Assembly (NCBI GenBank): GCA_944376715.1
Contig: CALWDO010000034.1
Coordinates: forward strand, 1-34,403
DNA: 34,403 bases
Direction of reading: 5' to 3'
Source of the DNA: an uncultured Lachnoclostridium sp.
Lineage (GTDB): Bacteria; Bacillota; Clostridia; Lachnospirales; Lachnospiraceae
Shown here: one piece after another, positions 172 through 32,149 of the stretch
Position numbering within the stretch: position 1 is the first letter of the stretch
How the letters are laid out: each line of letters opens with the position of its first letter
Position numbers and translations under genes: made by a program
Notes under the pieces: generated by a model
Databases searched by the model: none
What the model saw: the letters and a program-made list of their open reading frames with translations, nothing else
Told to the model about the DNA's origin: nothing

Positions 172-181
172 ATATATGTAA

Positions 182-197: not shown

Positions 198-242
198 TTT
201 ACGAATGCGTGTCGGAAACAGCTCCGTTTCGCAACAATGAGT

Positions 243-271
243 ATTCTACTATGGGCTTTCTAAATTGTCAA
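243..271 (-). promoter_or_regulatory. sigma-A promoter of the tRNA-Gly pair
   Basis: The minus strand has TTGACA (266-271), a 17-bp spacer and TAGAAT (243-248), an almost perfect housekeeping promoter. The predicted start is near 236, giving a leader of about 65 nt before the first tRNA. It overlaps the 3' end of the decayed binding-protein gene. Confidence 0.85.
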
Positions 272-280
272 GCGCTTTTT

Positions 281-803: not shown

Positions 804-812
804 CTGGCCTCT

Positions 813-1564: not shown

Positions 1565-1565
1565 A

Positions 1566-1745
1566 CTATACCCTCCTGTTTGTCAAAAGGAGATAGAGGA
1601 AATAGATCCCTCCCCCCACGATAATAAACACGCTTACGGGAACCGTGTAAGAAAACACATGTTCCACGATCATCTGTCCTCCCACCAGCACAATCATTCC
1701 GAAGAAAGCAGATCCCAGAATCAGGGTCATCGACCGGTTTTTCAT
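1566..1745 (-). pseudogene. FecCD-type siderophore permease, C-terminal remnant (59 codons)
   Basis: An open frame from ATG 1745, preceded by GAGGAGG, encodes MKNRSMTLILGSAFFGMIV and ends in YTVPVSVFIIVGGGIYFLY-LLLTNRRV. The last 40 or so residues resemble the C-terminus of a YclO/FecCD permease, where the final helix follows a PVS/PVG motif. Full-length permeases are about 320 residues, so more than 80% is missing. The intact ribosome binding site now sits right before the remnant, which suggests an internal deletion fused the 5' end of the operon to the permease tail. It ends 2 bp before the ATPase start. It could be translated into a small two-helix peptide, but no function is claimed. Confidence 0.75.
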
Positions 1746-1766
1746 AAAAGAAACCTCCTCGCAAAA

Positions 1767-1824
1767 GTTAGTTATTGCTAACTATGGGTCGCAGTATGTC
1801 ATATAAGGGGAAAAAAATGCAAGC
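1767..1824 (-). promoter_or_regulatory. Possible iron-regulated promoter/operator of the decayed uptake operon
   Basis: The perfect inverted repeat GTTAG-N6-CTAAC (1768-1783) lies about 20 bp upstream of the remnant start codon. Its half-sites resemble the TTAGG/CCTAA arms of DtxR-family (IdeR/MntR-like) boxes. Just upstream on the minus strand is TTGCAT, an 18-bp spacer and CATACT, a plausible promoter that places the repeat near the transcription start. The assignment is inference only. Confidence 0.4.
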
Positions 1825-1854
1825 ACTTTTTCTCCCCCCTTTTTAGAAATATTC

Positions 1855-2838: not shown

Positions 2839-2875
2839 ACACCCAATCTCCTTTCCAAAAGTGCCGGTTCATATC

Positions 2876-2923
2876 ATAAAAACAGAGCTGCCGCCCGTTT
2901 TTCCAAACATTCTGCGACAGCTC
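2876..2923 (-). terminator. Rho-independent terminator after the FGGY kinase
   Basis: On the minus strand the 10-bp arms GAGCTGTCGC and GCGGCAGCTC (one G-T wobble) flank a 19-nt loop and are followed by TGTTTTTATG. It lies just past the kinase stop codon. Confidence 0.75.
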
Positions 2924-2940
2924 CATATCATTGGTATCTC

Positions 2941-4536
2941 TTATTTCAGCGCGTCGATCGCGGCCCTCTCAATGGGGAATCCTGCTTTGTAACGTTTGAT
3001 GAACTCGTCGAATCCCTTTACATCTTCCGGATCCGGATCCATCTTTTCGCCTTCGTCCCCGCCGAAGACTTTATTCTGCAGATAATCTGCCAGGCTCTCG
3101 CCTTCTTCTTTCTGAATCATATAAGAAGCCAGCAGGGCAATCCCCCATGCGCCTCCTTCGCCGGCCGTCTTCATGACGGATACCGTAGCGTCCATAGCGC
3201 CTGCCAGAATCTTCTGTCCCACGCCTTTCGTCTTGAAAAGTCCGCCATGTCCGGTGATGCGGTCCACCGCCACGCCCTCTTCTTTCAGAAGGATATCCAG
3301 TCCGACCTTTAATGCCCCCAGGGAAGTATACAGGTTCGCGCGCATGAAGTTGGCAAGATTGAACTTGCTGTCCGGGGTACGCACAAACATCGGACGGCCT
3401 TCCTCAAATCCGGTAATATGTTCTCCGGAGAAATAGTTGTAAGCCAGAAGTCCGCCGCAGTCCTTGTCGCCCTCCAGTGCCTTGTTATATAATGTGCCGA
3501 AAAGCTTGTTCATATCCACTTCTATCCCAAAGCTCTCCGCAAATTCTTTGAAAATATTCACCCACGCATTCAGATCCGAAGTGCAGTTGTTGCAGTGTAC
3601 CATAGCTACCGCGTCTCCGCTGGGCGTGGTCACCATATCGATCTCCTCATGCACTTCCTTCAGCGCTTTTTCCAGAACGATCATGGCGAATACAGAAGTA
3701 CCCGCGGACACATTTCCGGTACGCGGCTTTACGCTGTTGGTGGCGGCCATACCAGTACCGGCGTCGCCTTCCGGCGGGCAAAGCGGGCAGCCCGGCTGCA
3801 GTGTTCCGGTAGGATCCAGCTTCTTTGCGCCTTCAGCAGTCAATACGCCGGCGTCATCTCCCGCGAGGAGTACCTTGGGAAGAAGATTTTCCACTTTCCA
3901 GGGCATTCCTTTCGCCGCCGCCAGCTCGTCAAACTTCTCCAGCATGGAAGTGTAGTAATCTTTTGTATCGGAATCAACAGGGAACATACCGGATGCGCTT
4001 CCCACGCCCAGAACCTTTTCTCCGGTCAGCTGCCAGTGGATATATCCGTCCAGCGTAGTGAAGAAATCCACATCTTTCACATGATCCTCTCCGTTCAGTA
4101 TCGCCTGATACAGGTGCGCGATACTCCATCTCTGCGGAATGTGGAACTGGAACGCTTCCGTAAGCGCTTCGGATGCCTCCTGGGTGATCGTATTTCTCCA
4201 GGTACGGAACGGAACCAGAAGTTCTCCGTCCTTGTTGAACGCCAGATATCCGTGCATCATGGCGCTGAAACCGATCGCTCCCAGTTTCTCCACCTTTATT
4301 CCGTACTGTGCCTGCACGTCCTCGGTCATCTTCTGATAACAATCCTGAAGGCCCGTCCAGATATCCTCCAAAGAATAAGTCCAGATCCCGTTCTCCAGAC
4401 GGTTTTCCCAATCGTGGGCGCCGGATGCGATCGGTGTATTGTGCTCATCGATCAGCACTGCCTTGATCCTGGTAGAGCCAAATTCAATTCCCAGAACCGC
4501 TTTGCCATTTACTATTGTATTTTTCACATCGCTCAT
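2941..4536 (-). CDS. FGGY-family carbohydrate kinase
   Basis: This 531-residue sugar kinase has the two-domain FGGY fold. The N-terminal phosphate motif is [15 protein letters not shown] (about 17-31), the second phosphate motif is NVSAGTSVF, and the C-terminal adenosine motif [10 protein letters not shown] is followed by [11 protein letters not shown]. It transfers ATP phosphate to a pentose/ketose; which one is not decidable by eye. Proteins of this length and type in clostridia are variously annotated as xylulokinase or ribulokinase. ATG 4536 follows AGGAGGGG. It is monocistronic, with its own promoter and a terminator, and no isomerase, epimerase or transporter beside it. It is not closely similar to the second FGGY kinase at 27828-29516. 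Confidence 0.85.
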
Positions 4537-4572
4537 AAATTTCCCCTCCTGATATAAGCCTGTCTTAGGTCT

Positions 4573-4601
4573 ATTATAACCTGACCGACTATATATTTCA
4601 A
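4573..4601 (-). promoter_or_regulatory. Promoter of the FGGY kinase with flanking AGGTC/GACCT repeats
   Basis: The minus strand has TTGAAA (4596-4601), a 17-bp spacer and TATAAT (4573-4578). The -10 element lies inside the imperfect inverted repeat TTAGGT-N8-ACCTGA (forward strand 4565-4584), and another AGGTCA copy is at 4611-4616. This suggests a repressor site over the promoter. The regulator is unknown. Confidence 0.65.
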
Positions 4602-4636
4602 AGATATTTTAGGTCAATTTTACTAAATATTTTAAA

Positions 4637-4936
4637 TTATACCAGGATTCGTTCTACAATAAATACCGCGGCGCATGCTCCCGCCGCCACCATCACCAGA
4701 CCTTTTCCACGGAATGCCAGTCCCACTGCCGTAAGAGCGCCTGCCGCCGCGCTTATGGGACTTTGCGTCGCATAGAAGATACCCGGGATCGTCATAGCCG
4801 TCAGGCAGGTATACGGCACATAGTAGAGGAATGACCGGATATACCGGTTCTCGATCTTTTTCTGAAAAACCGTAAGCGGCACTGCCCGGATCAGATAGGT
4901 CACCACTGCCATTACTATTATATAAAGATAGATCAT
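4637..4936 (-). CDS. azlD: AzlD-family branched-chain amino acid exporter small subunit
   Basis: This 99-residue, very hydrophobic protein has about three to four membrane helices and the family pattern TYLIRAVPLTVF near the N-terminus, then YIRSFLYYVPYTCLTAMTIP. It partners AzlC to export branched-chain amino acids or analogues. Its ATG (4936) overlaps the azlC stop by 4 bp (ATGA), typical of translational coupling. The length matches the family (about 100-110). There is no obvious terminator after it before the FGGY kinase promoter. Confidence 0.9.
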   Translation of the reverse strand: MIYLYIIVMAVVTYLIRAVPLTVFQKKIENRYIRSFLYYVPYTCLTAMTIPGIFYATQSPISAAAGALTAVGLAFRGKGLVMVAAGACAAVFIVERILV

Positions 4937-5646
4937 GCTTCCGTATCTCCTTCCGCCTGCACCGGGAACAGAAATGCCGCCGCCGCGGACGCTGCCACCG
5001 TAGAGAGAATGATCGCCGTACCGGACGAAATTCCCGACAGAGCCGGCACATAATAGATCAGGCAGCTAAACGCTGCCGCCAGCGCTGCCGCGAACAATAC
5101 AGCCCGGGATTTCCGCGCATTTGGCGCCACCACCGCAATGAACATCCCGTATAACGCCACATTCAGCGCGCTGCTAAGGGCAGGAGGCATAAGTCCGGAC
5201 GCCGCCGCGCCCAGGACTGTGCCGGACGTCCATCCCAAGATGGGAAGAATCTGAAGCCCCGCCATATAAGAAAACGTCAGACTCTTGCCGCGGCCCACAG
5301 CCACCGCGAAAATCTCATCCGTGTTCGCAAACGCGATGACCAGACGTTCCCGGACTGTCACCGCCTCCGACAGCTTCTGTGAGAGCGACAGGCTCATAAG
5401 CGCATACCTCAGGTTAATGATAAACTGGGTCAGCGCCATTTCCAGAAGCGTTCCTCCCGCGATAATAACCTGCAGCCCCGCGAACTGTCCCGCGCTGGTC
5501 ATATTGGTCAGGCTCATAAGCGCCCCCTGGAAGATACTCAATCCCCCGCCCAGCACCATAATGCCAAAACTGAAGCTGACCGACAGATACCCTGCCGCAA
5601 TAGGTATCCCATCCTTCAATCCGCATCGAAACTCCTGCATATTCAT
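4933..5646 (-). CDS. azlC: AzlC-family branched-chain amino acid exporter large subunit
   Basis: This 237-residue membrane protein begins MNMQEFRCGLKDGIPIAAGY and continues with the family signature of a large hydrophobic protein: FSFGIMVLGGGLSIFQGALM, MTSAGQFAG and FANTDEIFAVA. With AzlD it forms an export complex for branched-chain amino acids. I chose ATG 5646 (GGGGAT upstream). The frame stays open to a TTG at 5676, but that codon lies against a hairpin and has no ribosome binding site. It may depend on read-through from the upstream glycosidase gene, since only a weak TTGAAC/TAGAAC promoter is seen right at the start codon. Confidence 0.9.
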   Translation of the reverse strand: MNMQEFRCGLKDGIPIAAGYLSVSFSFGIMVLGGGLSIFQGALMSLTNMTSAGQFAGLQVIIAGGTLLEMALTQFIINLRYALMSLSLSQKLSEAVTVRERLVIAFANTDEIFAVAVGRGKSLTFSYMAGLQILPILGWTSGTVLGAAASGLMPPALSSALNVALYGMFIAVVAPNARKSRAVLFAAALAAAFSCLIYYVPALSGISSGTAIILSTVAASAAAAFLFPVQAEGDTEA

Positions 5647-8078: not shown

Positions 8079-9893
8079 TTAGGTGTTTTGTACAAACAGG
8101 GCTTCAAATTCATCCCTGGTAATCTTCTCTTTTTCAAGCAGAAGCTCCGCGCAGGCATCCAGCACTTTCCTGTTGGCATTGATCAGCTCTTTGGCTTTGG
8201 CGTAGCATTCGTCCACGATCCGCTTTACTTCCGCGTCGATCTGACCGGCCACCTGCTCGCCGTAGCTTCTTGTATGCGCCAGATCCCGCCCGATGAAGAC
8301 TTCTTCATCATCGCTGCCGTAATTGATCAGACCGATTTTCTCGGACATACCGTATTTTGTGACCATTGCGCGGGCAATCGAAGTCGCCTGCTTGATATCC
8401 TGGGACGCGCCCGTGGTAATATCGTCGAAGACCAGCTCTTCCGCCACGCGTCCGCCCAGATCCACGATAATATTCTGCAGCATCTTTCCCTTGGTATTAA
8501 ACATGTCATCCCGCTCCGGAAGCGGCATGGTATATCCCGCCGCGCCCACGCCGGTGGGAATGATAGATACCGTATATACCGGTCCCACATCCGGAAGCAC
8601 ATGGAACAGGATCGCATGGCCGGACTCATGGTATGCCGTAATCCTTTTTTCTTTGTCAGATATAACACGGCTCTTCTTCTCCGCGCCGATCCCTACCTTG
8701 ATAAACGCCTTGCGGATATCCTCCTGGATCATGTACGCGCGGCCTTCCTTCGCCGCGTAGATCGCCGCTTCATTCAGAAGGTTCTCCAGATCCGCTCCGG
8801 TAAATCCCGCGGTGGTCTGGGCAATCTGGTGAAGATCCACGTCGTCGCCCAGCGGCTTGTTCTTGGCGTGTACCTTCAGGATCTCTTCCCGGCCTTTTAC
8901 ATCCGGCCTGCTGACCGCGATCTTCCGGTCAAAACGTCCGGGACGCATGATCGCCGGATCCAGGATATCTACCCGGTTCGTCGCAGCCATGACAATAATC
9001 CCTTCATTCGCGCCGAAGCCGTCCATCTCTACCAGCAGCTGGTTCAATGTCTGCTCCCGCTCGTCGTGTCCGCCGCCCATGCCGGTACCGCGGCGTCTCG
9101 CCACCGCGTCGATCTCGTCGATGAACACGATACACGGGCAGTTCTTTTTGGCGCTGGCAAACAGATCCCTTACACGGGACGCGCCCACGCCCACGAACAT
9201 CTCCACAAAATCAGATCCGGATATGCTGAAAAACGGCACTCCGGCTTCCCCGGCCACCGCTTTGGCGATCAGCGTCTTTCCTGTTCCGGGCGGGCCCACC
9301 AGCAGCACTCCTTTGGGAATACGCGCTCCCACCTTTGTATATTTCCCGGGGTTTCTCAGGAAATCCACGATCTCTTCCAGTTCGCCTTTTTCCTCGTCCA
9401 GTCCTGCCACATCCTTGAAGCTGGTCTTGGTATCACCGGTCATCGTCATCTGAGCCCGGCTCTTTCCGAAATCCAGCATCTTGCCGTTGCTTCCTCCGGT
9501 ATTCCTGCCGAACGCCACAACGATGAGAAATAACATGACGCCGCACATCAGAAGCGTCGGACCGAAAGTAACCAGAAATCCAGGCCCTTCCACCGCCGCC
9601 ACATCATACGCCACGCCGGCGTCTTCCAGCAATGCTCCCACAGTCTCCGTGTTCAGCACATGGGTAATACGCACAGAGCCGTCTTCCAGTGTGTAATTCA
9701 CAGAACCGGTCGGCGTCTCCTCATTGGGCTCGATCTCTGCGTATGCAATCTGCCCTTCTTCCAGACGCTGTACAAACGTCTGGTAGGAGTCTGTCGAATT
9801 CTCGAGGCTCCTGTTTTCAAAAAACACCAGCAGCGCACACAGAAGCGCAAAGACCAGCAGATAGCTGCCAATGTTTTTCCATTGTCCGTTCAA
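8079..9893 (-). CDS. ftsH: ATP-dependent zinc metalloprotease FtsH
   Basis: This 604-residue membrane-anchored AAA+ protease degrades unstable or misassembled membrane and cytosolic proteins. It has TM1 at about 8-25, an extracytoplasmic domain to about 104, and TM2 at about 106-128. The AAA module has Walker A GPPGTGKT (200-207), Walker [10 protein letters not shown] and the second region of homology with RPGRFDR. The zinc site HESGH is at 422-426. The start is a TTG at 9893 with AGGAGG 10 nt upstream; no in-frame ATG is near. It is the last gene of tilS-hpt-ftsH, the same order as in B. subtilis. The length is slightly short of the usual 610-650, mainly at the C-terminal tail. Confidence 0.96.
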
Positions 9894-9910
9894 TCTTTCT
9901 TATCCTCCTG

Positions 9911-10438
9911 TCAATCAAATTCCACCACGCCAATATACGGCAGGTTCCGGTACTGCTGGTCATAGTCCAGCCCGTACCCGACCACAAATTTATCTTCAAT
10001 CTGAAATCCCACATACTCTACGTCCACATCCGTGACTCTGCGCTCCGGTTTGTCCAGCAGCGTACAGATCTTAAGACTCGCAGGCTGCCTCTGGCTCAGC
10101 AGATCTTTCAGATGGCTGAGCGTACGCCCGGAATCGATGATATCTTCCACGATAATCACGTCCCGTCCTGTAATCGGTTCATCCAGGTCTTTTACGATCT
10201 TGACGACCCCGCTGGATTTTGTAGCCGCCCCGTAGCTGGAGCACTGCATGAAATCCATCGTCACCGGCACCGTTATTCTTTTTGCCAGTTCGCAGGTAAA
10301 ATATACGCTTCCCTTTAAAATACAGATCAGATGTACGATCCTTCCCTCATAATCCCGGCTGATCTCTTCGCCCAGTTCCCGAATTCTCTGATTTACCGTT
10401 TCCTCCGGCAGCATGATCTCAATATGATGTTTCTCCAT
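9911..10438 (-). CDS. hpt: Hypoxanthine phosphoribosyltransferase
   Basis: This 175-residue purine salvage enzyme converts hypoxanthine/guanine and PRPP to IMP/GMP. The PRPP-binding motif IIVEDIIDSGRTL is present, with the upstream flexible loop around SSYGAATKSSG and the C-terminal base-binding region VEYVGFQIEDKFVVGYGLDY. ATG 10438 is chosen because GGAGGG lies exactly 7 nt upstream. A start at 10456 would have none. The gene overlaps the 3' end of tilS by 20 bp, so translation is probably coupled, and ftsH follows after 17 bp. Confidence 0.95.
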   Translation of the reverse strand: MEKHHIEIMLPEETVNQRIRELGEEISRDYEGRIVHLICILKGSVYFTCELAKRITVPVTMDFMQCSSYGAATKSSGVVKIVKDLDEPITGRDVIIVEDIIDSGRTLSHLKDLLSQRQPASLKICTLLDKPERRVTDVDVEYVGFQIEDKFVVGYGLDYDQQYRNLPYIGVVEFD

Positions 10439-11816
10439 CCTTTGTCCCTCCGTCATTCATCCACTGTACTTTCAAGACCCTTTTCGTCTGCTCCGTCACT
10501 TTATAACGTTCGCTGATCCGCATGCCTACCGTCCAGATAATATGGCTTCCGTCCGCCAGAAGCGTAAGACTGTCCCGGTCTTCTCTGGGAACTTTACAGT
10601 CGATCAGGTAATCCTTCAGTTTTTTATGCGCGCCGTCCGCCACCTCCAGATAGTCTCCGGGTCTGCGGGTCCGCAGCACGACGCCTTGTTTGATTTTATC
10701 ATAATCGAACCACTTCGTATAGCAATTTACAGGAATTTTCTCCTTTTTCTCCCAATTTTCCAAAGCAAACCGGAAAATATCCCCCCTGTAATGATATTCC
10801 CCGCCGGGCGCGCAATATACCTCTTCCTCTTTCTTTTCCGTTCCATAGCCCTCTTTCAGCAGGACCGCGTCGTATCCCAATACCGCATACCGTCCGTCCG
10901 GAAGCGTGATCCGGCTTCCCCGCCTCCCATGTGTCAGCGCGCTCAACTGCTCCGCATGCACTGCGGACAGGTCCTTTCTGCTCCCGTACAACTTTTCCAG
11001 GCAGTCCATCGCCAGCATCTTGCCCAGCGCCGGATGCAGTTTCCCGAAAGGCTCCAACAGGATCCGGATCTCACGCCCCGTCTGCCGCACGCAGGCAGTT
11101 CTTGCCTGATCCAGATTCTGCTCCAGAAAATCTTCAATTTCCAGCAGGCGCTCCGCCGTCTCCGCCATCCTTTCGACGGTTCCCGGACGGATCTCTTCCA
11201 TGGGAGCAAGCACCTGATGCCGGATCCTGTTTCTGGTGAACTCCAGCTCCCGGTTGCTGGCATCCTCCACCCAGAGAAGCCCTTTCTCTTTCAACCAGGC
11301 TTCTATCTCGTCTCTTTCCACGCACAAAAGCGGGCGGATATACGGCAGACGTACCGGTTCCATGCCCCGCAGCCCCTTGATCCCGCTGCCTCTCATCAGA
11401 TGAAACAGCATGGTCTCCGCCTGGTCGTTCTGATGATGCGCCAGAGCGATCCGGTCTGCCCATCCTTCTTCTATACAGCGTGCAAACGCGCGGTAACGGG
11501 CATTCCGTCCTGCCTCCTCCAGGCCGATTCCATCTGCGGAAGCGTCCGCCGGGACATCTTCCTCGCAGATCCGGACCGGGATCTTCCGCTCCTCGCAGAA
11601 TGTTTCACAAAACCGCTGATCCCGCAGCGCTTCCGCTCCCCGGATTCCATGATTTACATGCAGAGCCTTGACCCGGATCCCCAGACGTTTCCGGTTTTCC
11701 CACAACAGCTGCAGCAGCGCCACAGAATCTGCTCCGCCGGAAAAACCCACGCAGACCGTGATCCCCGGCGCCGTCATCTCCCGCCGGTCCAGATATGCCA
11801 GCACTTTCTCTTCCAT
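10419..11816 (-). CDS. tilS: tRNA(Ile)-lysidine synthase TilS
   Basis: This 465-residue enzyme converts the wobble cytidine of tRNA-Ile(CAU) to lysidine using ATP and lysine; it is essential for AUA decoding. The N-terminal PP-loop is VGFSGGADSVALLQLL. LHVNHGIRGAEA and IALAHHQNDQAETMLFHLMRGSG follow, and the C-terminal TilS domain contains TRRPGDYLE and VPREDRDSLTLLADG. ATG 11816 has AGGAGG 6 nt upstream, whereas the ATG at 11822 abuts it. It is the first gene of a three-gene operon with its own promoter at 11843-11871. Confidence 0.95.
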   Translation of the reverse strand: MEEKVLAYLDRREMTAPGITVCVGFSGGADSVALLQLLWENRKRLGIRVKALHVNHGIRGAEALRDQRFCETFCEERKIPVRICEEDVPADASADGIGLEEAGRNARYRAFARCIEEGWADRIALAHHQNDQAETMLFHLMRGSGIKGLRGMEPVRLPYIRPLLCVERDEIEAWLKEKGLLWVEDASNRELEFTRNRIRHQVLAPMEEIRPGTVERMAETAERLLEIEDFLEQNLDQARTACVRQTGREIRILLEPFGKLHPALGKMLAMDCLEKLYGSRKDLSAVHAEQLSALTHGRRGSRITLPDGRYAVLGYDAVLLKEGYGTEKKEEEVYCAPGGEYHYRGDIFRFALENWEKKEKIPVNCYTKWFDYDKIKQGVVLRTRRPGDYLEVADGAHKKLKDYLIDCKVPREDRDSLTLLADGSHIIWTVGMRISERYKVTEQTKRVLKVQWMNDGGTKDGETSY

Positions 11817-23122: not shown

Positions 23123-24121
23123 TTATTTCCGCGCTTTTCTCCTTTCAGAAACAACATTAATAATCATGACAGCGATCAATACGAGCCCCCATATAAGGTT
23201 TTTATAATAATCTGATATATTCTGGAACAGCGAAAATCCAGACGAAAGCATTTGAAGTATAATAACTGCAAATACCATGCCGCTCACTTTCCCTTTTCCT
23301 CCATTAGGATTTACGCCTGCGAGGACACATATTAATATGGATGGAGTTAAATAGGATTTACCAAAATCAGATCTGGCGGAATTAAAATGTCCGCACATCA
23401 AAATACCCGATACCGAAGCCAGTATTCCACTGATAATATATGTAAAAGTTAATACCTTCTTATTATCTACTCCTGAATACTTCGATGCTTCTTTATTCGA
23501 TCCTATCATATATATCTTGAATCCAAACGCAGTCTTATTCAACAAGAAAGCAACCGTTCCCGCACAAGCAGCAAATACAATGGTAGTAAGCGGGATTACC
23601 CCAAATAAACGGTAATTTACTGCTGTATTCAGAATACTCGGAAGTTCGTTTACTGAAGAACCCTGCGTAATACCTACAGCCAATCCCAAAATAATATCTG
23701 AAGCGCCTAAAGTTGCAACCATGGCAGGTATCCCGATTCTGGAAATCAAAGTTCCTGTAAATACTCCACAAACACTGCCCACAACCATGCCAAATATCAA
23801 AATCACCAGCAGCACTAAAATTTGAACCGGCAATGACGCATTTTCCGGCATAATAGTTTTTAACAGCATACAGCTTAAAATTCCTGCAAGATCTGCTACC
23901 GCTACTACCGTCAGGTCAATTCCCCCGCTGATCATCGCCAACATCATTCCCAAGGACATTACACCCATTTCCGGAAATAAATATGCAACCAACTGCATTT
24001 GCCCAAAGGTCAGAAAAGATCCTCCTGTAGCTATCGTAAGTCCTGCCAAAGTGACCAGTAATATAAACAGCAGCCTCATAATATTAGAATCTTTATTTAA
24101 ATACCTGCTTATACTATTCAT
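23123..24121 (-). CDS. Sugar ABC transporter permease 2 (RbsC/LsrD type)
   Basis: This 332-residue inner-membrane permease has eight to ten hydrophobic helices. The family pattern MSLGMMLAMISGGIDLTVVAVADLAG is followed by IGIPAMVATLGASDIILGLAVGITQGSS and the cytoplasmic coupling region FGFKIYMIGSNKEASKYSGVD. It should pair with permease 1 and the ATPase for sugar import. ATG 24121 has GGAGG 6 nt upstream and overlaps the end of permease 1 by 8 bp. It is the last gene of the operon; no terminator is seen before the rluA-type gene. Confidence 0.9.
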   Translation of the reverse strand: MNSISRYLNKDSNIMRLLFILLVTLAGLTIATGGSFLTFGQMQLVAYLFPEMGVMSLGMMLAMISGGIDLTVVAVADLAGILSCMLLKTIMPENASLPVQILVLLVILIFGMVVGSVCGVFTGTLISRIGIPAMVATLGASDIILGLAVGITQGSSVNELPSILNTAVNYRLFGVIPLTTIVFAACAGTVAFLLNKTAFGFKIYMIGSNKEASKYSGVDNKKVLTFTYIISGILASVSGILMCGHFNSARSDFGKSYLTPSILICVLAGVNPNGGKGKVSGMVFAVIILQMLSSGFSLFQNISDYYKNLIWGLVLIAVMIINVVSERRKARK

Positions 24122-25154
24122 GAGCTGCCTCCTCTCCTGCGGCATCCTTCAAGATATTGGAAGTCACTTTCCTCTCCGCAGAAACCGCTTTATATGCAGA
24201 TACACATACTCCAAGAATAATCAAAATACCTGTCATCAATTTGCTCCATTCCGTCGGTATTCCAAGAAGAATCAAATTGTTTGAAATAATCTTCATCAGT
24301 ACCACTCCAAGAAACGTCCCGAAAACACTTCCGCTTCCTCCTGCAATATTGGCTCCTCCCAGAACTACTGCCGCAATAATTGTCATCTCATAACCATCAA
24401 AGAAATTAATCTGACACATTCCCGACAGAGTGACCTGTGTAAGCCCAGTTATCCCACCGATCATTCCGCAGGCGGTAAAAACAAATACTCTAATAGCCGC
24501 CACATTAAATCCAGCTCTCTCTGCCGCTACCGGATCACCTCCAACTGCATATATGCCCCGACCCAACATAGTATATTTCATAATAAAACCAACAATTAAC
24601 AATGTGACAATCAGGAACAAAATACTTACATGCATAGAACTTCCCAAATTTGTGGCAGCACTCCTGACTGAAAACAGATTGGCGGACACCATATTCTTCA
24701 TAGGTTCCGGAAGCACTGAAATAACGCTGCTTTTCAGAACGCCTTGAGTAAAACCAAGGTATATTGTACATGTCCCGAGCGTAATGATCAGCGTAGGAAG
24801 TTTTAACCATGCTGCCAAGACACCATTAATCATTCCCAGGAAAGCACCAATCACAGCCGCCAGCAAAAATCCCAAGATAACCGGCCCTTGATAGCCTGTA
24901 ACCTGAAACAATTTTGTAACGGCAAACATGCATAACATTGCGGTATAAGGAAATGACACATCAATATTTCCCGATACAATCACCATAAAAAGCCCTGACG
25001 CCATCATACCAGGTACAATCAGGCTTCTCGTCAGGTCGACCAGATTGTTAGCCGTAAAAAATTGCCCGCTGATCGCCTGAATGATCAATGACAATATTAT
25101 AATAATCAAAGCTACATAAAATTCATTACGTTTTAATAACCGTTGTATTTTCAT
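24114..25154 (-). CDS. Sugar ABC transporter permease 1 (RbsC/LsrC type)
   Basis: This 346-residue permease of the ribose/AI-2/rhamnose importer class has VPGMMASGLFMVIVSGNIDVS, LKLPTLIITLGTCTIYLGFTQG, the coupling loop MLGRGIYAVGGDPVAAERAGF, and EMTIIAAVVLGGANIAGGSGSVFGT near the end. The two permeases differ clearly in sequence, so the channel is probably a heterodimer, as in the Lsr and Rha systems. ATG 25154 follows GGAG about 13 nt upstream. It starts 4 bp after the ATPase stop, which suggests tight coupling. Confidence 0.91.
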   Translation of the reverse strand: MKIQRLLKRNEFYVALIIIILSLIIQAISGQFFTANNLVDLTRSLIVPGMMASGLFMVIVSGNIDVSFPYTAMLCMFAVTKLFQVTGYQGPVILGFLLAAVIGAFLGMINGVLAAWLKLPTLIITLGTCTIYLGFTQGVLKSSVISVLPEPMKNMVSANLFSVRSAATNLGSSMHVSILFLIVTLLIVGFIMKYTMLGRGIYAVGGDPVAAERAGFNVAAIRVFVFTACGMIGGITGLTQVTLSGMCQINFFDGYEMTIIAAVVLGGANIAGGSGSVFGTFLGVVLMKIISNNLILLGIPTEWSKLMTGILIILGVCVSAYKAVSAERKVTSNILKDAAGEEAAHE

Positions 25155-25158
25155 ATTG

Positions 25159-26661
25159 TCATCCCACTCCTTCTGTTATCAATGCCTGCAATTTAGAACT
25201 GTCAAGATCCGTATTCTTATACTCTCCCGTAATATGGCCGCTTTTGATGATCAGAATCCTATTGCAATTCATCAAAATCTCGCTGATATCGTCTGAAATC
25301 AACAGAATTGCCATATCTTTCTCCTCCGCAAGTTTTCTGAGGTAATTATGGATATCATATTTCGCTCCTATATCTACGCCTACTGTTGGTCCATTTAAGA
25401 TCAGGACTTTAGGCCTAGTTTCCAACCATTTTCCCAGAACCACTTTCTGCTGATTCCCCCCTGACAGGGTTTGGATTCCGTCTTTCAGTTCATGCAGTTT
25501 AATACCAAGGCTTTTAATCCAATATTTAGAGTCTTCGATTCCCTTTTTATAATCTACAGTTTTATTTTTTCTTTTCAATCTATCAATATTGGATATTATC
25601 ATATTGTTTTCAATAGACTGAGTCAGGAAAAGCCCTTCTGTCAATCTATCTTCCGGAACATACCCTACCTTTAATTTCAGGGCATCCATAGGCGTCCTGA
25701 TCTGTACTTCTTTATCCTCTATATATATTTTCCCTGAACTTGCTGTGTATAAGCCAAAAAGAGTTTTGGCCAATTCTGTCCTGCCGGAACCCAACAAACC
25801 AGTTATTCCTAAAATCTCGCCTGGATGTATGTCAAAATTGATATTTTCAAAGCCATTCTTAAGGCATAAGTTTTCTACCCTGAACAGGGATTTGTTGAAA
25901 TCCGCGTTCTTTGCCGTAAAATACTCTTCCTCAATAGTCCTGCCCGTCATATAATATATAAACTGTTCATTTGTGACATTTTGTGCCGGTTTAGAGATAA
26001 TTGTTTTACCATTTCGGAATACTGTAAACTGATCTGCGATTTCAAAGACCTCATCCAATTTATGACTGACAAATAAAATAGAAATGCCTTCTTCTTGCAG
26101 TTGCCGAATCACTCGAAAAAGCTTGTCCACCTCTTTTCTTGTTAATGCGGATGTTGGTTCATCCATAATAATTAATTTCGAATTATATAAAATGGATCTG
26201 GCAATTGCAATGAGCTGTTTGTCTGCAATTGATAAAGTTCCAACCGTCTCATCTAATGGAATATTTATCCCTATATGATCCAGTGCTTGCCGCGCAATCT
26301 TTCTTACATTCTTCCAATTTACCAGTTTTCTTTTATTATAAAGCTCATAATTCATAGCGATATTTTCAGCTACAGTTAAATTAGGAAAAATAGACATGTC
26401 CTGGTAAATAACCTGAATGCCCATTTGAATTGACTGGTTAATATCCAGAGATGGATACTCCTGACTATCAAAATAAATACTTCCTCCATCCGGTTTATAA
26501 AACCCGGAAATAATTTTTATTAAAGTTGATTTGCCGCATCCATTCTCTCCAACCAGGCAATGAATCTCTCCTTTATGTATGGTCAAATTTACTTTATCAA
26601 GTGCTTTAACACCGCCAAAATGTTTTGATATTTCTTTTGCTTCTAGTAATATCTCGCTCAT
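25159..26661 (-). CDS. Double-domain sugar ABC transporter ATPase (RbsA/LsrA type)
   Basis: This 500-residue protein has two ATPase domains. Domain 1 is complete: Walker A GENGCGKST (38-46), signature LSIADKQLIAIAR and Walker B LIIMDEPTSALT. Domain 2 has the degenerate Walker A GLLGSGRTE usual in this class and signature LSGGNQQKVVLGKWL. Its Walker B reads VLILNGPTVGVDIGAK, so both the Asp and the catalytic Glu of LDEPT are replaced. Only domain 1 is likely to hydrolyse ATP. I chose ATG 26661 (GAGG 5 nt upstream); the open frame to 26721 runs through a hairpin. It follows the binding-protein gene after an 80-bp gap with a stem-loop. Confidence 0.92.
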   Translation of the reverse strand: MSEILLEAKEISKHFGGVKALDKVNLTIHKGEIHCLVGENGCGKSTLIKIISGFYKPDGGSIYFDSQEYPSLDINQSIQMGIQVIYQDMSIFPNLTVAENIAMNYELYNKRKLVNWKNVRKIARQALDHIGINIPLDETVGTLSIADKQLIAIARSILYNSKLIIMDEPTSALTRKEVDKLFRVIRQLQEEGISILFVSHKLDEVFEIADQFTVFRNGKTIISKPAQNVTNEQFIYYMTGRTIEEEYFTAKNADFNKSLFRVENLCLKNGFENINFDIHPGEILGITGLLGSGRTELAKTLFGLYTASSGKIYIEDKEVQIRTPMDALKLKVGYVPEDRLTEGLFLTQSIENNMIISNIDRLKRKNKTVDYKKGIEDSKYWIKSLGIKLHELKDGIQTLSGGNQQKVVLGKWLETRPKVLILNGPTVGVDIGAKYDIHNYLRKLAEEKDMAILLISDDISEILMNCNRILIIKSGHITGEYKNTDLDSSKLQALITEGVG

Positions 26662-26689
26662 CCTATCCTCGCCCTCACTTAAGAATATA

Positions 26690-26719
26690 GCCCGTATATC
26701 CAAAAAAGGATGTACGGGC
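26690..26719 (-). other. Intercistronic stem-loop between binding protein and ATPase genes
   Basis: On the minus strand GCCCGTACATCC and GGATATACGGGC pair (one internal mismatch) around TTTTTT. No T-run follows. Such a hairpin between a binding-protein gene and the rest of its ABC operon commonly protects the upstream mRNA from 3' decay, giving more receptor than transporter. Confidence 0.6.
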
Positions 26720-26740
26720 ATAAATATTCAGACAACCTTT

Positions 26741-27802
26741 TTAGAACGGATAGTCCGCCATATTATCTTTATTAATAACAAGAATCGCATTACCACTGAT
26801 ATTTTTGCCATCTACCGTAACGCTATTATATCCATCTATCCCAAAGTCATATCCTGTCTGGATCTGATCTCCATTTCCATCCAAAATCATGGACGCGATA
26901 TGGCACATTACTTTACCTGAAAGGGCAGGATCCCAGGAAAGTACGCATGGATTAGATCCAGATTCCAGATATGGTCCTGACACAGACGGGACGCCTGTTC
27001 CGACAGCAAAAATCTGTCCTGTCATTCCTAATTCGTCAATCGCTTTCGCCGCACCTGGCGCATCATAACTGGATGCCCCTAAAAAACCTTTAATATCCGG
27101 ATATTTCTTTATGATTTCTTTTGCCTTGTTATAGGCTGTATCCATATTATCTTCACATTCAATTCTTTCTTCAGGAATCAATTCCATATTCGGATACGCT
27201 TCCTGCTGATGCGCGACAGCCGCATCCATCCACTGATTATGCGATACAGATGACAGGAACGCTACCATAGTGACATATTTCCCTTCTTCTCCCATAGCAG
27301 CTGCCAATTCATCCATCATTCTTTCACCATATTCCTGATTGCTAAACGCTTCAACATCATAATCACATTCATCAAATCCTTCTGCTTCATGAGTAACAAC
27401 AACGATTCCTTTCTCCCTGGCTTTGGCAAGTACCGGCCGGCACGCCTCCGGATCGATAGGGACAACACATAAAGCATCAATATCCTGTGCAATCAAGTTT
27501 TCAATCACTTGTATCTGTTCTGCTGAGTCTGTTTTAGACGGCCCTTTTACATAAGCATTATTTCCTGTTTCTTCTGCGAATTCATCAACCCCCTGCTGAA
27601 GCCGGATAAACCATGGGTCTGACATATCTTTTACGACAGTAGCAATCGTATACCCCCCTTCTGATGCTTTGTCCCCACTTTCATTTGTGTCAGAAGCGCT
27701 CGTCTGTGAGTTTGTTTCTGTACTCTGGCTTGATCCACATCCAGTTGCCATTGTCATCACCATTACCATACAAAGAACCATTGACACTAATTTCTTTTTC
27801 AT
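26741..27802 (-). CDS. Sugar-binding lipoprotein (LsrB/RhaS-like periplasmic-binding family)
   Basis: This 353-residue lipoprotein has a signal peptide of about 21 residues ending MATGC, with lipidation at Cys22, then a Ser/Thr/Asn-rich linker. The mature part follows the LsrB pattern: TIATVVKDMSDPWFIRLQQG, VKGPSKTDSAEQIQVIENLIAQ, VVPIDPEACRPVLAKAREKGI, SVSHNQWMDA and the family-typical C-terminal INKDNMADYPF. Residues that LsrB uses to bind AI-2 are not kept (for example Ser-His where LsrB has Asp-Gln before the NQW), so another small sugar is likely. ATG 27802 has AAGGAGG 6 nt upstream. It follows the kinase by 25 bp. Confidence 0.88.
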   Translation of the reverse strand: MKKKLVSMVLCMVMVMTMATGCGSSQSTETNSQTSASDTNESGDKASEGGYTIATVVKDMSDPWFIRLQQGVDEFAEETGNNAYVKGPSKTDSAEQIQVIENLIAQDIDALCVVPIDPEACRPVLAKAREKGIVVVTHEAEGFDECDYDVEAFSNQEYGERMMDELAAAMGEEGKYVTMVAFLSSVSHNQWMDAAVAHQQEAYPNMELIPEERIECEDNMDTAYNKAKEIIKKYPDIKGFLGASSYDAPGAAKAIDELGMTGQIFAVGTGVPSVSGPYLESGSNPCVLSWDPALSGKVMCHIASMILDGNGDQIQTGYDFGIDGYNSVTVDGKNISGNAILVINKDNMADYPF

Positions 27803-27827
27803 ATGTAACCTCCTTCAATTATATAAT

Positions 27828-29516
27828 CTACTCATGATACCTTTCTTCTCTCTTGATCTCTTTCAGCCCTTTCAGCCCTTTCATAAAAGAATCATTCAAT
27901 CCAAAAGTGTCATGCAGTATTCCATAAAAAGAATAAACCTTATCATACAGCTTCCCATTTTCACTGTCCGGATGATAAACAACCACTTCTTTTGGAACCA
28001 GCCTTTCTGCGGCTTCCTGAAAATCTCTACATCCCCATTTTTTATCTGCTTTTCCTAAAGCAACCGCTGCACACACTGCGGCTCCTCTTGCTGAAACATT
28101 ATCAAACCATGGAACAATGATATCTTTATGAAATACATCTGCACACATCTGCATGATCCACGGACTTTTACGTGCAATTCCGCCTACCGCATATATAGCA
28201 TTGATTTCAACGCCATTTTTTTCATAATTCTCTATAATCTTTCTCGATCCGAATATATTTGCCTCCACAAGAGCCCTGTATATCTCTTCCGGTCTGGTTT
28301 CCAATGTCATTCCGACAATTAAACCTGACAAATTATAGTTAGATAAGATACTGCGGTTTCCATTTAACCAGTCCAATGCAACAAGCCCTGTTTCCCCAGG
28401 TTTATATTGAACTGCCATTTCTCCCAATAGATCCAGCAGGCTTTTCCCCTCTTTTCTGGCTCTTTCTGCATATGGTGCCGGTACACAATTTTGTGCAAAC
28501 CAGGAAAAAACATCTCCCGTAGCAGGTTGACCTGATTCATATCCATACAGCCCCGGAATCATTCCATCGGCAGCGACAGAACAAATACCATCAAAAGAAC
28601 GAAATTCTCTATACATCAACTGGTGGCAAGTAGAGGTCCCCATTACAAGTACCATACTTCCACTTTCCGTCACGCCTGCACCACAACCAGATACCGCGCT
28701 ATCTCCATGTCCTGCTGCCACAACTGCTTCTGTGGTAACTCCCAGAAGTTCTGCCATATGAGGAAGTACTTTGCCGACATAATCGCCCGCTTTTACTATA
28801 TCCCCTGCTAATTTTGTATTTGCCGCATCCTCTAAAAGAGGATTTAATGCTCTGGCAAACGCTGCGTCTGGATATCCCTTTCCTTTAACCCAAAAAGCAT
28901 TCACACCTAATATCCCGCTGTTACGGCTATTGATCCCTGTCAGCAGCATGACAATATAGTCAACAGCTTCTATAAAATAATCTGCCTCAATATAAATCTC
29001 TGGATTTTCTTCCGCCACCTGCAACATTTTAGGATATACCCATTCTGACGATACAGAATTTCCAAAATATTCTTTTAACCAGGTAGTATTCTCTTTTGCG
29101 TATTTTTCTATACGTTCCGCATATGGCTGTGCTCCATGATGTTTCCATAATTTGGGCCATGCATTGGGAATATCCCGAAAACGGTCCATTTTGCAGAGAG
29201 GCGTCCCATCTTTTTTAATCGGAATCAACGTACAACTGGTAAAATCTGTCCCTATTCCTGCCACTTCTTCTGGTTTGATCCGGCCTTCCCTTAACATTTC
29301 TCTGGATACAGAAACCATACTTTCCAACCAGTCGTCCGGATCCTGCAGGAACCATTCCGGTTCCAGTTTAATGGGTTTATGTTTCATTTCCCTCGAAATA
29401 ACGCCATTCTTATATGGGCTTTCTGCAGTTGCCGCCATCTTCCCTGTATTCAAATCAAGAGCCACACCTCTGCAGGATAGAGTCCCAAAATCAAATCCCA
29501 AAACATATCTGCTCAT
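27828..29516 (-). CDS. Ribulokinase-like FGGY carbohydrate kinase
   Basis: This 562-residue kinase has the length and motifs of L-ribulokinase AraB: YVLGFDFGTLSCRGVALD, then GIGTDFTSCTLIPI, WPKLWKHHGAQPYAERI, FIEAVDYIVMLLTG, GHGDSAVSGCGAGVTESG, MGTSTCHQLMY, GLYGYESGQPATGDVFSWF, ALDWLNGNRS, ETRPEEIYRALVEA and AVGGIARKSPWIMQMCAD. It should phosphorylate a ketopentose or related polyol inside the cell. There is no araA (isomerase) or araD (epimerase) next to it, so the pathway is not the standard arabinose route. Neighbours are a BtpA/SgcQ-family protein upstream and a sugar importer downstream, in one operon. ATG 29516 has AGAAGG nearby. Confidence 0.87.
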   Translation of the reverse strand: MSRYVLGFDFGTLSCRGVALDLNTGKMAATAESPYKNGVISREMKHKPIKLEPEWFLQDPDDWLESMVSVSREMLREGRIKPEEVAGIGTDFTSCTLIPIKKDGTPLCKMDRFRDIPNAWPKLWKHHGAQPYAERIEKYAKENTTWLKEYFGNSVSSEWVYPKMLQVAEENPEIYIEADYFIEAVDYIVMLLTGINSRNSGILGVNAFWVKGKGYPDAAFARALNPLLEDAANTKLAGDIVKAGDYVGKVLPHMAELLGVTTEAVVAAGHGDSAVSGCGAGVTESGSMVLVMGTSTCHQLMYREFRSFDGICSVAADGMIPGLYGYESGQPATGDVFSWFAQNCVPAPYAERARKEGKSLLDLLGEMAVQYKPGETGLVALDWLNGNRSILSNYNLSGLIVGMTLETRPEEIYRALVEANIFGSRKIIENYEKNGVEINAIYAVGGIARKSPWIMQMCADVFHKDIIVPWFDNVSARGAAVCAAVALGKADKKWGCRDFQEAAERLVPKEVVVYHPDSENGKLYDKVYSFYGILHDTFGLNDSFMKGLKGLKEIKREERYHE

Positions 29517-29535
29517 TTTTAAGCCTTCTAAATAT

Positions 29536-30348
29536 TTAAACCTCTCCTCTAAATCGCTTTACTACATCCATAAATGCTTTTACACGACTTTTGTCCACCT
29601 GATTTTCAAATTTTCCGTTATACTTAAACGTAGTAGCAACTACCGCACCGTCAGCTATTTTTAAAATATCCTCTATTGTTTCTTTTGTACACCCGGTATT
29701 TGCCAATACAACTGTATCAGGGACAACCTCTTTTACTTCTTTAAGAAGTGACTGGTCAGTAGGTGACCCTGCCGTCAACCCTGACACACACAACGCATCC
29801 GGCCTGCAGTTAAATACGGTAGACTTTGCAATTTGTTTCAAATTTCTGTCCGCTAGATATTTAGCCGCCTCCGGCAAAATATTAAACAAAAGCTTTACCT
29901 CTTCAGCTCCAATCTCATGTTGATGCCGTATCGTTGCTCCGCAGTCAGTATCCCATAATCCAAAATCACTGGCATATACTCCTGTAAAAATCTCTCTTAC
30001 AAATTTTGCATCTACAGCAGCCGCCAAATCCAACGACGCGTTAGGATCCCAAAGGACGTTGACTCCATATGGAATTGATATATAAGGTTTTAATTCCCCT
30101 ATAATCCTTGCCATGGATGCCACTGTCACAGTTTCAACAGAAGTAAGATACGGAAGACTATATTCGTTGCTGAACATAATCGCATCCACACCGCCTTCCT
30201 GCAGCGCATCCAAATCTTCTTTTGCCTTTTCTACTACCCATTTCATGCCCTTTTCCTTGTCATAGCCTGGATCACCGGGCATCGCCTGTAAATGGAGCAT
30301 AGAAATAACACATTTTTCTTTTCCTATTACCTCTTTTAACCAACTCAT
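29536..30348 (-). CDS. BtpA/SgcQ-family TIM-barrel protein
   Basis: This 270-residue cytoplasmic protein belongs to the BtpA family (named for a cyanobacterial photosystem I factor, with SgcQ of the E. coli sgc sugar operon as relative). It has CVISMLHLQAMPGDPGY, GGVDAIMFSNEYSLPYL, PYGVNVLWDPNASLDLAAA, REIFTGVYASDFGLWDTDCG and a C-terminal phosphate-site-like ANTGCTKETI...ADGAVVATTFKYNG. The fold resembles phosphate-binding barrels such as tryptophan synthase alpha. No reaction is established. Placed between a DeoR regulator and a sugar kinase, it may act on the phosphorylated sugar. ATG 30348 has GGAGG 6 nt upstream. Confidence 0.87.
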   Translation of the reverse strand: MSWLKEVIGKEKCVISMLHLQAMPGDPGYDKEKGMKWVVEKAKEDLDALQEGGVDAIMFSNEYSLPYLTSVETVTVASMARIIGELKPYISIPYGVNVLWDPNASLDLAAAVDAKFVREIFTGVYASDFGLWDTDCGATIRHQHEIGAEEVKLLFNILPEAAKYLADRNLKQIAKSTVFNCRPDALCVSGLTAGSPTDQSLLKEVKEVVPDTVVLANTGCTKETIEDILKIADGAVVATTFKYNGKFENQVDKSRVKAFMDVVKRFRGEV

Positions 30349-30358
30349 CTTTTTCCTC

Positions 30359-31138
30359 CTATATAGTGATTAAATTTATTGCTTTATCATTTAATATTTC
30401 TACAGTTTCTTCATCAATCCCGGCATCCGTAATAACAACGTCAAAATCATCTATATCACAGACCTTTGTTAGAGCCTTTCTTCTAAACTTTGTGTGATCA
30501 CTAAGAAGCACTCTATATCTCCCACTGGCTATAATACTTCTTTTTATGCCGATCTCTATAAAATTACTGTCAAACACTCCATATTCCGGATTAATTGCAT
30601 CAGCTCCCAAAAATACTATATCTACACAAAGTTTTCTGACCATTTCTTCAGCGATCTGTCCAACCAGGACATTATACCCATCCCTTCTGATTCCTCCAGT
30701 AACAATCAAAGCGGATGTTTTATCTAGTTTAATGTTATATGCAATATCTAAGTTATGGGTAATCACTGTAAGATTCTGAAACCTATGTAAGGTCTTGGCC
30801 AGCAAAAGTGTCGTTGTCCCTGAATCCAGAAAAATACTGCATCCGTCTTTTATCAATTCTGCCGCTTTCTGGGCGATTTTCGTCTTTTCAGGGATCATAA
30901 GTTTCATCTTCTCGTCGACGCCTCTTTCCAGACCAGTTCCTCTCTCAATTACAGCGCCTCCGTGTGTACGTTCCAGATATCCCATACCTGCCATTTCATC
31001 CAGATCTCTCCGGGCTGTAGCCTCTGAGACTTTACACAAGTTTGCAGCTTCTTTTATGGTTATACTTCGTCTTTCATTTAAGTAGTCCATGATACTCTGC
31101 TGGCGTTTCGCTGGCATTGAAGACGTCGTTTGATGCAT
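30359..31138 (-). CDS. DeoR-family transcriptional regulator (operon repressor)
   Basis: This 259-residue regulator has an N-terminal winged helix, RQQSIMDYLNERRSITIKEA then LCKVSEATARRDLDEM, and RTHGGAV. A sugar-phosphate-sensing domain follows, with DSGTTTLLLAKTL, LTVITHNLDIA, VTGGIRRDGYNVLVG, FLGADAI and DHTKFRRKALTKV. It probably represses its own operon and is released by a phosphorylated sugar. ATG 31138 is preferred (AAGGAG 9 nt upstream); ATG 31147 abuts the SD site. It is the first gene of the BtpA-kinase-ABC operon, 10 bp before the next gene. It is closely similar to the regulator at 31346-32125. Confidence 0.93.
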   Translation of the reverse strand: MHQTTSSMPAKRQQSIMDYLNERRSITIKEAANLCKVSEATARRDLDEMAGMGYLERTHGGAVIERGTGLERGVDEKMKLMIPEKTKIAQKAAELIKDGCSIFLDSGTTTLLLAKTLHRFQNLTVITHNLDIAYNIKLDKTSALIVTGGIRRDGYNVLVGQIAEEMVRKLCVDIVFLGADAINPEYGVFDSNFIEIGIKRSIIASGRYRVLLSDHTKFRRKALTKVCDIDDFDVVITDAGIDEETVEILNDKAINLITI

Positions 31139-31151
31139 TCTCTTCATCTCC

Positions 31152-31345: not shown

Positions 31346-32125
31346 CTATGCATATATTAACTTCACTTGTGTTTTCTGTATCATTTCCGCCGTTTTTTCA
31401 TCTAAGCCCTTATCAGTAATAATTACATCAAATTCCTCAATACCACATACTTTTGTCAACGCTTTCTGCTTAAACTTTGTATGGTCCGCCAGCAATACTC
31501 TTGTTTCCCCACAATGGATACTGCTCCTTTTTATTCCTACTTCTAAAAAATTACTATTATAGATTCCACTATCCGGCATTACCGCATCTGCCCCAATAAA
31601 TGAAATGTCTACCCTCAGCTTATTGACCATCTCCTCCGCAATAGACCCAACCAGCACTCCATAATTATCGCGCCGGATACCTCCAGTTATAATCAATGTA
31701 GAGGAGCTGTCCAATTTTGTATGATAAGCAATATCAAGACTATGTGTAATTACTGTGAGATTTTGAAAAGGCAAAAGTAAATTTGCCAAAAGCAGAGTGG
31801 TTGTCCCTGAGTCAAGATAGACACTGCTTCCATCTTCCACCAGTTTCACTGCTTCTTTAGCAATCTTTGTCTTTTCCGGAATCATTACTTTCATTTTTTC
31901 TGCATGAACCATCTCCAAGGATGTACCTTTCTCAAGGACAGCACCTCCATGTGTTCGTGATAATAATCCTTGAGCAGACAAATCATCCAGATCCCTTCTG
32001 GCTGTTGCTTCCGAGACCTTACAGAGTATCGCAGCTTCTCTAATGGTTATACTATGGTTTTCCTGTAAATATTCCATAATACTTTGCTGGCGTTTCGCTG
32101 GTATCGTGCTCGTTATCTGCCCCAT
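31346..32125 (-). CDS. DeoR-family transcriptional regulator (paralogue, own transcription unit)
   Basis: This 259-residue protein is the same length as the regulator at 30359-31138 and roughly two-thirds identical to it by eye. The reading helix is identical (LCKVSEATARRDLD), and PAKRQQSIM, RTHGGAV, MIPEKTKIA, DSGTTTLLLA, FQNLTVITH and DHTKF are shared. It therefore may bind the same operator sequence. The sensing domain differs more (for example IHCGETR versus IASGRYR). ATG 32125 has GAGAGG 8 nt upstream. It has its own promoter and terminator, and there are no TTGCAA boxes in its promoter. A tandem gene duplication is the simplest origin. Confidence 0.92.
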   Translation of the reverse strand: MGQITSTIPAKRQQSIMEYLQENHSITIREAAILCKVSEATARRDLDDLSAQGLLSRTHGGAVLEKGTSLEMVHAEKMKVMIPEKTKIAKEAVKLVEDGSSVYLDSGTTTLLLANLLLPFQNLTVITHSLDIAYHTKLDSSSTLIITGGIRRDNYGVLVGSIAEEMVNKLRVDISFIGADAVMPDSGIYNSNFLEVGIKRSSIHCGETRVLLADHTKFKQKALTKVCGIEEFDVIITDKGLDEKTAEMIQKTQVKLIYA

Positions 32126-32149
32126 ATACAATACCTCTCTTTAGTAAAT

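Follow-up and report, generated by a model that had tools for sequence, protein, structure and literature searches.

Which sugar is handled by an operon that encodes a regulator, an importer and a kinase and no isomerase or aldolase, and what part is played in it by a protein of the BtpA/SgcQ family? The question is raised by a stretch of 34,403 nucleotides (the window) on contig CALWDO010000034.1 of an uncultured Lachnoclostridium sp. (GCA_944376715.1, a draft assembly of 79 contigs, 88% complete). On its minus strand, from 31147 to 23123, the open reading frame map reports seven co-directional genes encoding a DeoR regulator, a BtpA protein, an FGGY kinase, a lipoprotein, an ABC ATPase and two permeases. 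Successive genes are separated by 10, 19, 25, 19 and 4 bp, and the two permease genes overlap by 32 bp. Pfam and NCBIfam scans confirm the families of all seven, so the unit proposed in an initial annotation of this DNA is borne out by order, strand, spacing and family. The same scans report no isomerase, epimerase or aldolase gene within the window copy of the operon. Sequence comparisons suggest, with a probability of about one half, that the operon scavenges a ketose, with D-ribulose or a closely similar ketopentose as the likeliest substrate, and that it is related to the Rbl and Aau systems and to the sgc operon of Escherichia coli.

According to this proposal, the DeoR regulator, a member of a family of sensors, would respond to the free or the phosphorylated sugar. 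The lipoprotein and the ABC transporter, which we take to be of the CUT2 type, would import the sugar as a ketofuranose, and the AraB-derived kinase would phosphorylate it. Housekeeping enzymes such as Rpe would then feed the ketose phosphate into the pentose phosphate pathway, which would make a dedicated isomerase or aldolase unnecessary. BtpA, a barrel distantly resembling TrpA, would probably act on the same phosphorylated ketose, and two further proteins of the ancestral operon, a SIS protein resembling KdsD and one resembling NagB, would probably have disappeared from the window lineage. In outline, the operon looks like a complete unit for sensing, importing and phosphorylating a ketose, as had been claimed for a sugar in general. 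Comparison with L002, one of the closest related loci, gives dN values of 0.138 for DeoR, 0.095 for BtpA, 0.133 for the kinase and 0.119 for the binding protein, with dS at 2.45 or saturated; these four of the seven genes are under purifying selection.

The binding protein and its pocket

Among solved structures, the binding protein is most similar to 5BRA (272 bits), 3D02 (177 bits) and 9I1M (175 bits). The third of these is the best-scoring one with an established ligand: it is AauA of enterohaemorrhagic E. coli (EHEC) in complex with D-ribulose, which is contacted by Lys37, Trp43, Glu118, His167, Glu196 and Ser223 (PMC12307932). AauA binds D-ribulose with a KD of 2 uM versus 598 uM for L-arabinose, a more than 200-fold preference (PMC12307932). 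Alignment places Lys58, Trp64, Glu139, His188, Asp218 and Ser245 of the window protein at these positions; five of the six contacts are thus identical and the sixth, Glu196, is replaced by Asp, at an overall identity of 33% (95/291). By contrast, the label of an LsrB/RhaS-type importer proved loose, as the RhaS model TIGR02637 returns 130.9 bits (cut-off 342.25) and the LsrB model 98.9 bits (cut-off 384).

Among 19 other binding proteins aligned, the Lys, Trp, Glu and His contacts are kept in 15, and one such protein is encoded in every locus where a CUT2 set lies near BtpA (15 loci). These 15 proteins vary at the two positions touching the C5 hydroxyl. The Trp, Glu and His contacts are missing from binding proteins encoded far from BtpA in L002 and on contig 25 of the window's genome. 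Because of this pattern of kept contacts and varying C5 positions, BtpA operons with this importer type seem to take up ketofuranoses and to differ from one another at the C5 end. The proposed substrate class, a ketofuranose and perhaps D-ribulose, is the new and testable point.

The kinase and the likely fate of its product

The kinase exceeds the cut-off of the ribulokinase model PRK04123 and stays under that of TIGR01234 (Table 1). The AraB-like kinase encoded on contig 25 of the same genome also stays under the TIGR01234 cut-off (527.9 bits). In the ribulokinase 3QDK, L-ribulose is bound by Ala96, Lys208, Asp274 and Glu329 (PMC4880283). A 49-row alignment places Ser94, Asn206, Asp and Glu of the window kinase at these positions. 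The same Ser, Asn, Asp and Glu are found in the kinases of all eight closest relatives described below, whereas E. coli AraB and the contig 25 kinase keep Lys, Asp and Glu and have Gly at position 96. A richer version of the locus is seen in L101 (G015 contig 10, 5366-12005), where an AraB-like kinase with Ala at the place of Lys208 is accompanied by an AP-endonuclease-type epimerase and an RPE; these genes are transcribed divergently from those of BtpA and another FGGY kinase.

Elsewhere in the window's genome, genes for AraA and an AraD-like class II aldolase lie about 1 kb apart on contig 2 and Rpe is encoded on contig 26. Eight FGGY matches are reported, two of them in the window, and one of the others is the AraB-like kinase of contig 25. 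With these enzymes at hand, the operon could do without an aldolase of its own if its product were a ketopentose phosphate.

Two enzymes encoded by the closest relatives

A search of 84,980 species genomes with the BtpA protein returned 90 related stretches, of which the best 80 were kept as loci; BtpA was called in 79 of the 80, the exception being L075. The eight loci with the most similar BtpA (79-86% identity) all belong to Clostridia, including Clostridium symbiosum ATCC 14940 (L007) and C. transplantifaecale (L006). All eight hold a SIS gene (201-204 aa) and a NagB-like gene (mostly 241-250 aa) between BtpA and the kinase. The copies of L002 were family-scanned: its SIS protein scores best with KdsD (130 bits), KpsF (124) and GutQ (120), reaching none of the cut-offs (505, 204 and 481, respectively), and its NagB-like protein returns 241.9 bits with the glucosamine 6-phosphate deaminase model (cut-off 326) and 233.3 bits with TIGR00502 nagB (cut-off 236.9). 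The reported lack of isomerase and aldolase therefore holds for the window copy alone and looks secondary; the initial annotation described the window copy correctly but missed the two extra enzymes of its relatives.

In a tree of 91 BtpA rows, the window protein is nested among the relatives carrying both genes, within a clade of nine (support 100/95) and together with L002 and L004 (96/88). Mapping the presence of the pair on this tree requires two changes, interpreted as a gain and a loss. Since all eight closest loci hold both genes and the tree nests the window among them, the two genes were probably lost in the window lineage. DNA synteny between the window and L002 extends on both sides of the site; between the two blocks, about 30 bp of the window stand against the interval 10803-12150 of L002, an insert of about 1.35 kb. 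The best matches elsewhere in the window's genome are weak (26% and 29% identity to the SIS protein, 41% to the NagB-like protein), and orthologues are likely missing from this 88%-complete genome. Because the 19-bp junction coincides with gene edges and carries a plausible ribosome site, as judged by eye, a deletion is more likely than an assembly slip in this draft.

Several points weigh against D-ribulose as the substrate. The binding protein of L075 has Gln in place of His, and Trp, Glu and His are all missing from the binding protein of a second ABC set in L040; this set is co-directional with BtpA and lies a few genes upstream of it. The closest solved protein, 5BRA, is a putative ribose binder by name and, by eye, also has Gln at the His position. 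The window kinase lacks Lys208, an L-ribulose ligand, which argues for another substrate, since the D-ribulokinase RblK is described as keeping all L-ribulose ligands except A96 (PMC12307932) and should thus keep Lys208. Moreover, D-ribulose use by Citrobacter rodentium, as described, needs no BtpA (PMC12307932), and D-ribulose does not explain the NagB-like gene of the relatives.

The BtpA protein

BtpA is the sole match to its family in the window's genome. Its kinship with SgcQ, noted initially, is close (68% identity to the E. coli protein), and the photosystem I biogenesis model NF045918 returns 157.2 bits, under its equivalog cut-off of 400. The initial annotation also considered BtpA the only remaining protein able to act on the phosphorylated sugar. 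This is not supported: the relatives encode two more enzymes, the housekeeping Rpe would take D-ribulose 5-phosphate, and in the C. rodentium D-ribulose operon the isomerase RblI is reported to be dispensable (PMC12307932).

A tentative alternative makes BtpA itself the catabolic enzyme that is missing: a lyase or isomerase related to TrpA, which would cleave or rearrange the phosphorylated ketose in an undescribed pathway. The family shares conserved polar residues (H19, N61, E62, D101, R118, E160 and K242 in the window protein). A diverse BtpA profile searched against the PDB has as best hit a GGGP synthase (E 0.002). Of its 24 matches at E <=10, 15 are GGGP/heptaprenyl-GP synthases, TrpA (including 5EY5, which we take to be a TrpA) or OMPDC, aligned within residues 172-267. 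The similarity is weak, however: two of the 24 matches fall under E 0.01, and a first, narrower profile reports nothing under E 0.05, with five ribosome recycling factors among its 13 matches at E <=10. As a single query, the window BtpA retrieves no solved barrel of note. The TrpA family model matches one of the eight BtpA proteins in the scanned genomes (a G006 protein, E 7.7e-4, 19.3 bits, cut-off 27) and does not match the BtpA of the window.

Profile comparison by hhalign, with two BtpA alignments (42 and 65 rows), 14 TrpA rows and two settings, gives P values of 5e-5 to 1.3e-3 with TrpA (probability 18-68%) and 0.0022-0.0097 with RPE (4-13%), versus 0.056-0.52 with five non-barrel families (at most 1%). 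Single-sequence profile comparisons with TrpA, TrpC, SgcE and NagB were uninformative (probability at most 1.7%), and Glu49 of TrpA is aligned opposite Met58 of BtpA. BtpA thus weakly resembles phosphate barrels of the TrpA type in its C-terminal part. The phosphate site proposed there gains weak support at the profile level.

In the open-access literature, no reaction was found for any BtpA/SgcQ member among the matches listed. The cyanobacterial BtpA is described as interacting with and stabilizing glutamyl-tRNA reductase (PMC11449065). A BtpA reaction that is not yet described may possibly be involved in the pathway. In a wider form, which we hold to be conceivable and no more probable than the enzyme proposal itself, BtpA/SgcQ proteins would be TrpA-related phosphate-barrel lyases or isomerases of ribulose-type phosphates. 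This operon and sgc would then belong to widespread undescribed ketose routes in which BtpA carries out what follows phosphorylation. In the window, its substrate would come from an AauA-type importer and a kinase derived from AraB whose pocket has changed.

BtpA gene neighbourhoods

The same neighbourhood was sought in other genomes, by counting genes within eight of BtpA in the 79 loci where BtpA was called. Of these, 42 have an FGGY kinase and 50 have an FGGY kinase, DhaK or phosphotransferase system (PTS), which is in line with an enzymatic role of BtpA; the 29 loci without such a kinase or PTS include some on short contigs. A DeoR gene is found in 41 loci, peptidase-like genes of the M42 or M29 type in 29 and an RPE-like gene in 13. 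The labels M29, DhaK, DhaL, PTS parts, ADH, Gfo/Idh, AP2, HAD and SDR are presumptive, taken from sequence starts or general background and not from a family search; the other cluster names were confirmed on single members.

Distant family members are found in settings that also favour an enzyme. In L102 (G006 contig 5, same genus), a BtpA gene at 9324-10106 lies in a nucleoside-type operon with a PnrA/Bmp binding protein, a PfkB kinase, a uridine-phosphorylase-like protein, an isochorismatase, an iron alcohol dehydrogenase and a TrpA-like paralogue; similar clusters occur in L106. In L107 (G057, same order; 9574-11318), a very divergent BtpA adjoins an IF-2B-family sugar-phosphate-isomerase-like gene; an amidohydrolase gene and PTS genes lie close by. 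Pentose or pentulose phosphates may be a common theme of BtpA neighbourhoods.

Five annotated plasmid stretches were also opened. According to their annotation, BtpA is accompanied by DeoR, FGGY and SDR genes in Thermus and Labrenzia and by sugar genes without an FGGY kinase in Sinorhizobium and Phyllobacterium; one E. coli record carries sgc. A sixth stretch, of Rhizobium, is unannotated. A different setting is seen in L022 (~476-4673) and L025 (~133-5173), where BtpA lies between a gene that is presumably Rqc2-like and genes that are presumably cysteine desulfurase- (IscS-) and ThiI-like (labels read from the sequence), an odd and housekeeping-like context.

Other explanations

It is unlikely that the ancestral operon served a nitrogen-containing ketose (an amino-ketose or an amide-linked one), on which the NagB-like deaminase and the SIS protein would have acted downstream, and that the window lineage kept uptake, kinase and BtpA alone. 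Such an origin would account for the NagB-like gene in all eight closest relatives, whose L002 copy comes close to the TIGR00502 cut-off, and for the aminopeptidase-like M42/M29 genes near BtpA. M29-like genes recur close to BtpA in sugar operons (L024, L048, L054, L055, L064, L065 and others) and M42 genes at other loci; the M29 label comes from reading the sequence, as no NCBIfam model was found, and one M42 member was family-checked. In E. coli, carbon sources that contain nitrogen induce sgc, which the authors of that study take as a condition-specific transcriptional readout (PMC13343008). However, neither the NagB-like nor the SIS enzyme is kept in the window, and the importer pocket matches plain D-ribulose.

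Another explanation, which we regard as quite unlikely, makes BtpA a partner or chaperone that stabilizes an enzyme of the operon and not itself an enzyme of the pathway. It is in keeping with the stabilization of glutamyl-tRNA reductase by the cyanobacterial protein and with the "PTS chaperone-like features" predicted for SgcQ (PMC13343008). Conservation of polar residues across varied operons would be more typical of catalysis.

An accessory L-arabinose/L-ribulose operon is very unlikely and was rejected, although the kinase passes PRK04123 and AraA and an AraD-like protein are encoded elsewhere in the genome. Lys208 is replaced by Asn in the window and all eight relatives, AauA strongly prefers D-ribulose (PMC12307932), and neither araA nor araD lies in the operon or was recognized among the gene rows of the eight closest loci. 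The possibility that enzymes encoded elsewhere account for catabolism holds for L-arabinose in this one genome: because AraA, the AraD-like gene and an AraB-like kinase that keeps the Lys lie elsewhere, L-arabinose is probably handled there and not by this operon. Least credible, and likewise rejected, is an Lsr-type operon for uptake and processing of autoinducer-2, since, for all the similarity in outline to the lsr layout of CUT2 importer, FGGY kinase and TIM barrel, the LsrB model stays far under its cut-off, the autoinducer-2 kinase model returns 77.7 bits (cut-off 528), the Trp and Glu contacts are, by eye, replaced by Phe and Asp in LsrB (1tjy), and the NCBIfam scan of the unit reports nothing resembling LsrF or LsrG.

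Comparison with known systems

The Rbl system of C. rodentium consists of an ABC importer, a D-ribulokinase of the FGGY family and the KpsF-like isomerase RblI; importer and kinase are required for growth on D-ribulose (PMC12307932). The window shares the importer and the kinase and has no KpsF-like isomerase, to which the SIS gene of the eight closest loci is comparable. The passages describing Rbl mention no BtpA or NagB-like gene (PMC12307932), and the kinases, compared by description, would differ at Lys208. By analogy, the window operon, and even more so those of its relatives, repeats the Rbl plan with BtpA added. The Aau system shares five of the six pocket contacts, whereas its locus, as described, holds no metabolic enzyme (PMC12307932) and the window has a kinase; AraB of EHEC phosphorylates D-ribulose (PMC12307932).

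The sgcXBCQAER operon of E. coli resembles the window in its SgcQ protein, its DeoR-type regulator and its sugar importer. It differs in having a PTS in place of the ABC importer and kinase, as well as an RPE-like epimerase and an M42 protein. As reported in 2026, its substrate and biochemical functions were not established, and its mutants showed no growth defect across 190 carbon sources (PMC13343008). With araBAD the operon shares an AraB-like kinase, and differs in the absence of araA, araD and Lys208.

Operon layout and flanking genes

The coordinates of the operon and its upstream regulator are given in Table 1. The true start of the ABC ATPase is probably a later ATG, at about 26661. 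The two DeoR genes ahead of BtpA form a tandem pair, paired likewise in L002 and L005. Further upstream than DeoR2 lies a gene of 448 aa common to L002 and L003, and a pseudouridine synthase gene directly follows the operon downstream. A separate, second FGGY kinase gene of the window (2941-4536) adjoins a D-2-hydroxyacid dehydrogenase gene (1855-2838). A promoter and terminator scan returned consensus matches alone, and these were not used as evidence.

Table 1. Features of the BtpA operon in the window
Feature	Position	Strand	Evidence
DeoR2, second DeoR-family regulator, upstream of the unit	31346..32131	-	Pfam scan
DeoR1, DeoR-family transcriptional regulator	30359..31147	-	HTH_DeoR 64.6 bits, DeoRC 165.2 bits
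BtpA/SgcQ-family barrel protein, 270 aa	29536..30348	-	PF03437 300.6 bits (cut-off 30), TIGR00259 319.1 bits (cut-off 153.4)
19-bp junction, place of the SIS and NagB-like genes in the eight closest relatives	29517..29535	-	Locus comparison
AraB-like FGGY carbohydrate kinase, 562 aa	27828..29516	-	FGGY_N/FGGY_C; PRK04123 570.7 bits (cut-off 428), TIGR01234 532.6 bits (cut-off 583.25)
Lipoprotein sugar-binding protein, presumed CUT2 type, AauA-like pocket	26741..27802	-	Peripla_BP_4 200.4 bits
Double-domain ABC ATPase	25159..26721	-	ABC_tran, 2 stretches, 191.4 bits in total
ABC permease A	24114..25154	-	BPD_transp_2 110 bits
ABC permease B, 32-bp overlap with permease A	23123..24145	-	BPD_transp_2 121.2 bits

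Significance

The natural loss of the SIS and NagB-like genes, if real, suggests that these are dispensable parts; importer, kinase, regulator and BtpA were kept. The operon offers two things missing from sgc: an importer pocket for which a solved complex with D-ribulose is available as reference, and a kinase that has only a few candidate substrates. With both present here, a panel of ketoses would give the likely substrate class of BtpA, a member of a widespread protein family.

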